DNA from: Pusillimonas sp. T7-7
GTDB taxonomy: Bacteria > Pseudomonadota > Gammaproteobacteria > Burkholderiales > Burkholderiaceae_B
Length of the DNA stretch: 64,000 nt
Direction of reading: 5' to 3'
NCBI RefSeq assembly: GCF_000209655.1
Contig: NC_015458.1
Coordinates: forward strand, 1,984,001-2,048,000
The notes beneath the pieces are model-generated. The model did no database searches. It saw only the letters and a program-made list of their open reading frames with translations, and was not told the DNA's origin. This document shows positions 26,542 to 27,903 of this stretch, piece by piece. Each line of letters begins with the position of its first letter. Within the stretch, counting starts at the first letter, position 1. The position numbers were made by a program, and so were the translations under genes.

Positions 26542-26547
26542 TATAAT
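26542..26547 (+). promoter_or_regulatory. -10 element of the tRNA-Ser(UGA) gene
   Basis: A perfect TATAAT ends 10 bases before the first tRNA nucleotide (26558), a spacing typical of a tRNA promoter. No good -35 box is visible at the expected distance. Confidence 0.5.
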
Positions 26548-26557
26548 GCAGCCCGAC

Positions 26558-26864
26558 GGAAGGTTGGCAGAGTGGTCGAATGCACCGGTCTTGTTAACTC
26601 GAGCGCCAATTTGGAAACGAGTTGGATGTAAGGAGTCAAATTCGGCGAAGCCCCTGTTTTATACGAGGTAACGCCGAGCGAAGCCTGATTCAATCAGGAA
26701 CGTGTAGAGACTTGACGGCTCCCACCTAAAGCTGAAAGCTATGGTGAAGACAAAGTCCAGACTATCAAACAGGCAGCTTGTGCCTGGTAGTGAAAACTAT
26801 AGTAGTAAGGAAAACCGGCAGGGGCGCAAGTTCCTCCAGGGTTCGAATCCCTGACCTTCCGCCA
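26558..26864 (+). tRNA. tRNA-Ser(UGA) interrupted by a group I intron
   Basis: The exons are 26558-26592 and 26810-26864; joined they give a 90-nt tRNA ending in encoded CCA. The acceptor stem GGAAGGT pairs with ACCTTCC, the discriminator is G, and the D-arm GCAGAGTGGTCGAATGC is serine-like. The anticodon stem is CCGGT/ACCGG with loop CTTGAAA, giving anticodon UGA. There is a long class II variable arm (AGGGGC-GCAA-GTTCCT), and the T-arm is CAGGG-TTCGAAT-CCCTG. The intron falls between U34 and G35. The tRNA body resembles tRNA-Ser(CGA) at 60561. The gene must be spliced to yield a working tRNA. A standard tRNA finder may mis-call the anticodon or miss it. Confidence 0.9.
26593..26809 (+). ncRNA. 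Group I intron (IC3-like) in tRNA-Ser(UGA), 217 nt, no ORF
   Basis: P1 pairs 5'-exon CUU plus intron G with CGAG at 26600-26603, placing a U·G wobble at the splice site. P2 is a perfect 8-bp stem, 26606-26613 with 26618-26625, closed by a GAAA tetraloop. The core carries AAATTCGGCGAA...AACGCCGAGC (P4/P5), a P6 hairpin CCTGAT/ATCAGG, P7 formed by GACTT (26709-26713) with AAGTC (26753-26757), P8 CACC/GGTG and a P9 hairpin CAGGCA/TGCCTG. The intron ends in G. The core strongly resembles, as I recall it, the Azoarcus tRNA-Ile and cyanobacterial tRNA-Leu introns. Relative to Azoarcus, one P7 pair is swapped on both sides, which supports the helix. No homing endonuclease is encoded. Confidence 0.9.
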
Positions 26865-26916: not shown

Positions 26917-27002
26917 GCACCCATGGCGGAATTGGTAGACGCAAGAGACTTAAAATCTCTCGACCACTGGTCGTGCCGGTTCGATTCCGGCTGGGTGCAC
27001 CA
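26917..27002 (+). tRNA. tRNA-Leu(UAA)
   Basis: The 86-nt gene has an acceptor stem GCACCCA paired with TGGGTGC, discriminator A and encoded CCA (27000-27002). The D-arm GGCGGAATTGGTAGACGC is leucine-like, and the anticodon stem-loop AGAGA-CTTAAAA-TCTCT gives anticodon UAA. A class II variable arm and the T-arm CCGG-TTCGATT-CCGG follow. It lies 52 bases after tRNA-Ser(UGA), probably on the same transcript. Unlike cyanobacterial tRNA-Leu(UAA), this copy has no intron. Confidence 0.95.
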
Positions 27003-27030: not shown

Positions 27031-27462
27031 TCAAGCCGCGATCTTCCAGCCGGACTCTGTATCCTCGAATACCGCCTTTTCTTCTTCCCTAAGGTCGAGG
27101 TCAACAAGGCGCTCGATCATCTCTTGAAGTTTGACGTTTCCGTCGACGTATTCAAGATAAAACGCTCGCATCAAACGGCCATAGCCCACAGGCATCCGCC
27201 CACGCCTTTCCCACAAGGAAACCGTCTGCTCGCTCGAGCCAAACATCTCTGCAAGTCGGTTCTGAGAAAGCCCCATCTCCTTGCGCAGAAAACGCAGCTC
27301 CGCGCCTGTTAACCGGGACTTTCGGGCGAGATTGCGCCCTATTGTTCGATGAAGTTCGTCCACATCATGGATAGCCACAGCCTCTTCTCCGCCAACATTG
27401 CGGATTTTGTAGCCATTAGCAAGCCACACGTTACGCAACCCCGATTCGGTGTAGTGGTACAT
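27031..27462 (-). CDS. HTH antitoxin-type regulator (MqsA/XRE-like)
   Basis: The 143-residue protein has an N-terminal segment (MYHYTESGLRNVWLANGYK, then VAIHDVDELHRTIG) and a helix-turn-helix at about residues 50-90 (LTGAELRFLRKEMGLSQNRL, then FGSSEQTVSLWERRGRMP). This layout is typical of regulators that pair with DUF4258 genes. It lacks the zinc-binding cysteines of canonical MqsA. The upstream gene (DUF4258) ends 10 bases before its start, so the pair forms an operon. It probably autoregulates the operon and neutralises the partner; that role is inferred from the pairing. Confidence 0.8.
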   Translation of the reverse strand: MYHYTESGLRNVWLANGYKIRNVGGEEAVAIHDVDELHRTIGRNLARKSRLTGAELRFLRKEMGLSQNRLAEMFGSSEQTVSLWERRGRMPVGYGRLMRAFYLEYVDGNVKLQEMIERLVDLDLREEEKAVFEDTESGWKIAA

Positions 27463-27472
27463 AGCAGTCCTC

Positions 27473-27784
27473 TCAAAATACAGTTACAACAGCAATCCAT
27501 TCCCCGTCATTGTCACGATGTAGCGCCGCAGCCACCGATACCTCGTCGCCAGCCCATCGGTAAAGCATCGTACATTTCCAGTCACCATTGATGTCTTGGT
27601 GAGCCCGCTCAGCGATCGCGCCTCTGCGCAGGCATGACAATACCTGCATCAGTGTTATTCGTCTTTGCTTCATGCGCTTTTTCGCATGACTCGTAACGAA
27701 CACATTGCAAGAGTCCTGTGCCAGCTGCCGGATAATGCGAAGCATGGTTGCATCGCTCATCGTCAATGGAATTGGTTCTGCCAT
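27473..27784 (-). CDS. DUF4258 protein, probable toxin of a type II TA pair
   Basis: The 103-residue protein is called from ATG 27784; the frame stays open to a TTG at 27820, but that extension is rich in untypical residues and has no ribosome site. The conserved DUF4258 core is visible: VFVTSHAKKRMKQRRITLMQ (His, Arg and Lys cluster), VLSCLRRGAI and the strand WKCTMLYRWAGDEVSVAAAL. The fold is related to RelE/MqsR-like RNase toxins. The gene precedes and nearly touches the HTH antitoxin. Toxic activity is inferred from the pairing. The module sits beside tRNA genes, a common integration neighbourhood, but I see no integrase or attachment repeat. Confidence 0.75.
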   Translation of the reverse strand: MAEPIPLTMSDATMLRIIRQLAQDSCNVFVTSHAKKRMKQRRITLMQVLSCLRRGAIAERAHQDINGDWKCTMLYRWAGDEVSVAAALHRDNDGEWIAVVTVF

Positions 27785-27903
27785 ACCCGTAATTATTATG
27801 GGTTTCCTGAATTTTCGCAAGCACTACTATGTAAGCACGTTAACGCTCCCTCTCCTCCGCCAAGCTCTCCAGCTAGGCATTGTCCAGCAGTTCCAACGGC
27901 TAC

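Follow-up and report, generated by a model that had tools for sequence, protein, structure and literature searches.

Agrobacterium carries a group I intron in tRNA-Arg(CCU). Such introns are further described for tRNA-Ile(CAU) of Azoarcus in PMC3984707 and for tRNA-Leu(UAA) of cyanobacteria and plastids in PMC4033280; tRNA-Ile2 introns of Acidovorax and Burkholderia appear in the tRNAscan-SE 2.0 paper (PMC8450103), and introns of Arg, Gly and Lys tRNAs are claimed for cyanobacteria in PMC5733544. On the other hand, no group I intron of a bacterial tRNA-Ser was found in the open-access literature, in titles and the starts of abstracts, among the matches listed. This agrees with the initial annotation, which named tRNA-Ser(UGA) as a host not described in bacteria, and is not proof of it. 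The element reported here, found in a 64,000-nt stretch of the Pusillimonas sp. T7-7 genome (the window), is of a kind already known, in an apparently undescribed bacterial host.

The split tRNA-Ser(UGA) gene

With introns allowed, ARAGORN reads positions 26558-26864 of the window as a tRNA-Ser(tga) gene with a 217-nt intron after gene position 35, which is U34. The 5' exon (26558-26592, forward strand, as are all features of the gene given below) ends in U34 and is the same as the 5' half of L096, an uninterrupted tRNA-Ser(UGA) gene of another genus in the same family (G225); the intron (26593-26809) ends in G, the omega G; and the 3' exon (26810-26864) runs from G35 through the encoded CCA. 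Once the insert is removed, a cloverleaf with a long variable arm and the anticodon UGA is obtained, and the spliced exons are identical to L096 at 90 of 90 positions, in keeping with the split between U34 and G35 that had been proposed earlier. An uninterrupted tRNA-Leu(UAA), identified by ARAGORN, follows at 26917-27002 (forward strand) and completes a Ser-Leu tRNA pair, an order also seen at L096. In the scan upstream of the split gene, no promoter-like hexamer pair passed, and a TATAAT is legible at 26542-26547. No homing endonuclease is encoded in the intron, as each of its three forward frames is broken by stops within the 217 nt.

Beside the tRNA pair, on the minus strand at 27031-27820 of the window, a helix-turn-helix protein and a DUF4258 protein are encoded next to each other; as a guess, this layout resembles a toxin-antitoxin module.

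Fold and covariation of the intron

The Rfam group I intron model RF00028 aligns along its entire length to window positions 26582-26776 and scores 46.7 bits (E 8.9e-11, 601 nt searched), and P1 to P9 and the terminal G are all present, which bears out the group I assignment of the initial annotation. Helices P1 to P10 were drawn from the window sequence, giving 64 pairs, all of them standard, and these were then counted on 18 aligned homologues, with 500 shuffles and versions in which the partner was slid by 1-3 columns serving as controls. In the homologues, 96.7% of the pair cells are paired, compared with 86.8% after shuffling and 30-43% after sliding. Changes on both sides of a pair occur in 28 of the 64 pairs (18.3 in the shuffles) and in 126 cells (38.6 in the shuffles and at most 23 in the slid versions); the number of further pair types, one of five measures compared with the shuffles, is 58 against 52.6, barely above chance, and was reached by 21 of the 500 shuffles. 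Because the shuffles leave the relatedness of the rows in place, the weight is carried by the slid control and by the changes in P7, P2 and P6a.

In P1, the exon triplet CUU pairs with the internal guide GAG (26601-26603), and the preceding UC (26599-26600) forms P10 with GA of the 3' exon. P1, P10 and the terminal G are unchanged in all 18 homologues; every one of the 18 has a final intron G and, where the internal guide meets the 5' splice site, the U.G pair that was likewise claimed earlier. P2 (26606-26625) has 8 pairs, 6 of them with two-sided changes, and a GAAA loop. P3 (26632-26637 with 26717-26722) encloses P4, P5, P6 and P6a within 26632-26722, and 5 of the 6 pairs of P6a have changed on both sides. 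P7 (26709-26713 with 26753-26757, spanning 26709-26757) is pseudoknotted with P3 and paired in all 18 rows; three adjacent pairs have changed on both sides together in two of these rows, which are of the Acidithiobacillus type and close relatives, so that these changes may represent one event. P8 (26723-26746) is paired in 100% of the cells of its outer half and 96.3% of those of its inner half. Finally, P9.0/P9, P9a (26770-26786) and P9b (26787-26800, with a GAAA loop), all within 26761-26806, are paired in 92.6%, 90.9% and 100% of the cells. In the core, P3, P4, P6, P7 and outer P8 are paired without exception in the 18 rows, with two-sided changes in P3, P7 and P8. Pairing is weakest at the terminal pairs of P5, where 7 of 14 rows pair, and of P9a, with 6 of 14. 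The 307-nt transcript also folds better than each of 100 shuffled versions (z = -3.2), in a free fold that does not include the pseudoknot.

The initial annotation had called this core Azoarcus-like. The description holds if it is taken broadly, as a sharing of core motifs; the comparison itself was made with tRNA-Ile(CAU) introns of the same order, standing in for Azoarcus. By motif resemblance, the intron may belong to subgroup IC3, the Azoarcus and cyanobacterial tRNA type.

tRNA genes are common integration sites, and a truncated tRNA-Ser lies beside the split gene in one relative, as would suit an insertion that was derived from an integrase or is spliced by proteins, and is not a group I intron. 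Such an origin is hardly conceivable given the full-length RF00028 match, the P7 pseudoknot with its compensatory changes, the invariant U.G and terminal G, and a length of 217 nt with stops in each forward frame. Based on the results presented above, the insert is almost certainly, as judged from its sequence, a small tRNA-type group I intron, and it interrupts the anticodon loop of the one tRNA-Ser(UGA) gene that this genome was found to have.

Detection by standard searches

In the 3.92-Mb genome, the window intron is the sole RF00028 match at E <= 0.001 (E 1.4e-10). Its 46.7 bits lie below the gathering score of 50 for this family, which is a matter of detection threshold and not of structure. 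With default ARAGORN and Rfam at gathering thresholds, the intron and the split tRNA were both absent from the output, and only tRNA-Leu(UAA) and tRNA-Ser(CGA) were reported. Similarly, RF00028 at its gathering score gave no match at 13 further loci that carry a gene of this sort, of which L121 and L180 are incomplete in the stretch examined, and a multi-genome scan of the order showed none in three genomes with known introns (G006, G008 and G016). The RF00028 tallies, at least 36 of 349 genomes of the order and at least 48 of 321 of the class with introns, are consequently lower bounds and not prevalences. Because neither part is reported under these settings, pipelines that use the ARAGORN and Rfam defaults would likely omit both the intron and the tRNA.

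The only gene copy found and the probable dependence on its splicing

RF00005 gives 47 matches in the genome; all were inspected, and no second tRNA-Ser(UGA) was found among them. ARAGORN, run on the stretches with these matches, gave only GCU, GGA and CGA as the other tRNA-Ser of genome and window. A search of the same genome with the anticodon-arm pattern (up to 2 mismatches) returned 1,930 places and is uninformative as to a further copy; the two exact places on the forward strand are not tRNAs. In the nine carriers of the family, no intact tRNA-Ser(UGA) was found beside the split one, the other matches inspected being CGA and one GCU (the match in G001 is its intact gene). A further check covered 13 genomes, 11 beyond the nine together with G016 and G138, which were revisited by coordinates. 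The tRNA-Ser genes retrieved from them, several weak T-arm matches aside, are the split UGA gene, CGA, GCU or GGA, and the sole match of G935 is a tRNA at a contig end. In G928 the split gene is labelled Pro by ARAGORN.

By established decoding rules, UCA is read by tRNA-Ser(UGA) only, and two long reading frames contain 5 and 4 UCA codons. Since this tRNA alone reads UCA and no other copy was found, growth should depend on splicing of the window gene, as the initial annotation had surmised for a sole copy. The opposite view, of a dead gene whose intron no longer splices while another tRNA reads UCA, could appeal to the Rfam score below the cut-off and to the fact that splicing is inferred from sequence; it is very improbable when all 64 pairs are intact in the window copy and 96.7% of the cells are paired in 18 homologues, when the exons equal those of an uninterrupted gene, and when UCA codons are in use with no other tRNA-Ser(UGA) found. 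The intron is real and very probably functional, in an essential tRNA.

A mechanism of splicing may be proposed. The precursor RNA would fold after transcription, and exon CUU would pair with guide GAG. Exogenous guanosine would then attack after U34. Finally, the freed 5' exon would attack after the terminal G, whereby U34 and G35 would be joined and the anticodon UGA restored. The splice position, the fold and the junction can be read from the DNA, and the chemistry is that expected by analogy with the group I family.

Distribution in bacterial genomes

Of the 268 genomes of the family, 9 have full-length intron matches, and these represent 5 of its 43 genera. Three of the four genomes of the window's genus carry the intron; the fourth, G001, lacks it and has an intact tRNA-Ser(UGA) whose sequence is of a different type, agreeing with the spliced exons of the window in 69 of 92 aligned columns. 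Because this member has an intact gene, the intron is dispensable to the genus.

An exact 3'-junction pattern run over species genomes gave 68 places, 17 of which continue with a T-loop-like motif; the other 51 were set aside. One of the 17 (L142) is plainly no tRNA. The remaining 16 continue as tRNA-Ser, 15 of them confirmed whole (including L180) and one, L121, truncated where its contig stops; ARAGORN labels L170 as Pro, yet its sequence reads as Ser(UGA). Of these 16, five belong to family genomes included in the count above, and 11 are further genomes: a Propionivibrio, two Sulfuritalea, a Rhodocyclales MAG, three filed only as beta- or proteobacteria, Acidithiobacillus sulfuriphilus, two MAGs filed as Acidobacteriaceae and one filed as Mycobacteriaceae. 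As the pattern demands exact bases, this carrier count is a lower bound, and MAG labels are given as filed. The intron on the contig filed as Mycobacteriaceae (L169) falls among the introns of the window's family; the label is probably a case of misfiling or misbinning.

On plasmids, six records gave partial matches only, covering at best 34% of the query, and movement by plasmid was dropped from consideration. A tRNA-Leu(UAA) with a 204-nt group I intron was noted on a Bradyrhizobium plasmid typed as conjugative (CP094621; L305, 498-788).

Guide sequence and host exon

Altogether, 104 tRNA-borne introns were gathered and assigned to hosts by a splice-site rule: 31 in Leu(UAA), 35 in Ile(CAU) at two sites, 18 in Ser(UGA), 12 in Arg(CCU), 5 in Thr(UGU), 2 in Asn(GUU) and 1 in Lys(CUU). 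The last three hosts, observed in the window's order and class, are represented by L195, L197, L219, L223 and L226 (Thr), L191 and L200 (Asn, the latter on a very long branch) and L228 (Lys). Eight Ile(CAU) introns lie at a second site before the anticodon, between U33 and C34 (L212, L216, L217, L218, L254, L255, L256 and L267), and 7 of these 8 form a clade of their own.

Guides located upstream of P2 by an automatic finder fit the exon of their own host in 17/17 Ser rows (CUU), 18/21 Ile (CAU), 14/20 Leu (CUU) and 4/5 Arg (CCU). The exons of other hosts are fitted in 0 to 2 rows of each host, and no Ser guide fits CCU, CAU or UGU (0/17). For Thr, UGU/GCA is paired in 3/5 rows of the first table and 0/4 in the strict cross table. 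These counts are to be read with the rows for which the finder gave no guide, namely 1/18 Ser, 14/31 Leu, 7/12 Arg, 8/27 Ile, 7/8 second-site Ile, 2/5 Thr and the single Lys; the first version of the finder missed many rows because P2 was poorly located. The bases that form P10 are UC in 18/18 Ser introns compared with UU in 17/18 of the Leu rows located by the first finder. Guides that follow the exon (CUU/GAG, CCU/GGG, CAU/GUG, UGU/GCA) constitute a natural ribozyme set on a shared scaffold.

Phylogeny and origin

The first tree comprised 80 introns, 24 of the 104 having been dropped as other core types and hosts. In it, the 18 bacterial Ser introns cluster together (84/96; 89% of 200 bootstrap trees) and stay separate from the clades of Leu, Arg and Ile introns. 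The second tree, with 84 rows and the core only (26 of 110 dropped), again has one group of 17 Ser rows (98/96), including L296 from a viral contig; the Acidithiobacillus pair falls outside the Ser group, and one clade was not rejected (AU p 0.453). Three viral-contig Ser introns group instead with an intron that a 735-kb huge phage carries in tRNA-Leu (95/81). A single clade of all 22 Ser introns was mildly rejected (p 0.029, in a test devised once the tree was known), and viral and main Ser introns as a clade gave a borderline result (p 0.0507). Mutual attraction of the long, AT-rich viral branches may play a part, and the tree program warned of it. On these sequence comparisons, introns probably entered tRNA-Ser(UGA) on two or more occasions, and the viral Ser introns are perhaps derived from Leu introns.

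The initial annotation had suggested a move between tRNAs within the betaproteobacteria. A recent jump of this kind, by reverse splicing from a neighbouring intron-bearing tRNA such as Leu(UAA), about 50 nt away, or from Ile or Arg, could draw on the exon CUU and guide GAG that Leu and Ser have in common, on the grouping of Ser and Leu introns from viral contigs, and on G005 (L088, 1190-1643), in which the same Ser-Leu tandem has an intron in Leu(UAA) and an intact Ser(UGA). The bacterial Ser group, however, lies outside the clades of Leu, Arg and Ile introns, differs from Leu in P10 as given above, and takes in MAGs filed under another phylum, as Acidobacteriaceae, so that a jump appears improbable. 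Because the window lineage does not branch from within the introns that its relatives carry in Leu, Arg or Ile tRNAs, a recent arrival from another tRNA is not supported by the sequences.

Introns on viral contigs

Five of nine pattern places on IMG/VR contigs are tRNA-Ser(UGA) introns; at the other four there is no tRNA, and these were set aside. The five introns measure 722 nt in L295 (431-2927) and L302 (4919-11177), which have the same sequence where read, 521 nt in L300 (1679-7193), 208 nt in L298 (494-787) and 244 nt in L296. In L296, on a 47.6-kb viral contig, the exons and the tRNA-Leu neighbour resemble host DNA. L295, L300 and L302 lie in tRNA arrays, and the array of L302 includes an HNH endonuclease frame. 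No endonuclease was found in the 722-nt intron, where only one frame of at least 60 aa (61 aa) lies inside; an antisense one overruns the gene. Four of eight tested proteins (from L298, L300 and L302) match PHROGs families, none of them structural, and the viral nature of these contigs therefore rests on the IMG/VR call, their size and the arrays.

On large viral contigs, ARAGORN also called candidate introns in tRNA-Gln(UUG) (556 nt) and tRNA-Arg(UCU) (554 nt). The huge phage (LR756501, 735 kb) has a tRNA-Leu(UAA) with a 205-nt group I intron (L304, 920-1210). According to a 2014 review, all phage introns observed to date were in protein-coding genes (PMC3984707), and the tRNA introns of large viral contigs run counter to that statement; in the main text of the huge-phage paper (PMC7162821) the word 'intron' is absent.

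Spread of the intron

Because the intron has no endonuclease frame, it would spread by vertical inheritance and by DNA transfer, at times probably of the whole tRNA gene. One pattern is seen in Allopusillimonas, whose spliced exons are identical to the uninterrupted L099 at 90 of 90 positions; as in the window and L096, the sequences point to insertion or loss of the intron with the exons unchanged, a pattern in which gain and loss are indistinguishable.

Another pattern is found in G933, filed as Rhodocyclales (L338, G933:C68:47700-48500). Here, a complete intron-bearing gene is preceded, at a distance of 169 nt, by the 5'-terminal 39 nt of a different tRNA-Ser(UGA), which end at the anticodon loop. 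This half gene is 100% identical to the intact L054 gene, the acceptor stem of the intron-bearing gene differs from it, and the scar lies inside a 157-kb contig; the arrangement suggests replacement of a whole gene. It is the only scar in flanks of 125-3000 nt from 21 sets, equal to 20 genes (L177 = L249); a second flank match, beside L158, is a T arm and not a scar. The acceptor GGAAGGU is shared by 16 of 18 bacterial Ser carriers compared with 4 of 27 intact genes, the 27 being a convenience sample, and on the simplest reading of these sequences gene and intron descended together.

It is conceivable, and we offer it as a tentative and rather doubtful proposal, that intron-bearing tRNA-Ser(UGA) genes travel as units, ousting the resident essential gene, across classes and perhaps phyla, and that the tRNA arrays of large phages are a second, independently colonised reservoir whose Ser introns came from Leu introns. 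If genes do travel in this way, an essential tRNA gene would be a vehicle that the cell could not lose after disappearance of its native copy. With the half-gene scar, the endonuclease-free spread of tRNA introns becomes a testable question.

Comparison with known tRNA introns

The tRNA-fMet introns of cyanobacteria are elements of the same kind in another host, and that of Synechocystis has an intron reading frame, according to PMC5733544. Bacterial tRNA-Ile(CAU) introns resemble the Ser intron in the kind of core, the small size, the position in the anticodon loop and a guide triplet that pairs with the last three exon bases, but they differ in host, in the insertion point relative to the anticodon and in the guide, GUG compared with GAG, and form separate clades. 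The tRNA-Arg(CCU) introns, present in several members of the window's family, share the core and have the best partial BLAST similarity outside tRNA-Ser (77%, query 80-213), whereas their guide is GGG, their exon CCU and their clade separate. The tRNA-Leu(UAA) introns, also found here in the window's order and class, share the insertion after U34, exon CUU and guide GAG, but have AAAA as the 3' exon and mostly UU in P10, where the Ser introns have GAAA and UC, and again form separate clades. To the bacterial tRNAs with predicted self-splicing introns, tRNA-Ser(UGA) adds an apparently undescribed host with a whole group of introns; the family is unexpectedly wide, with about 20 bacterial genomes and a few large virus-like contigs.
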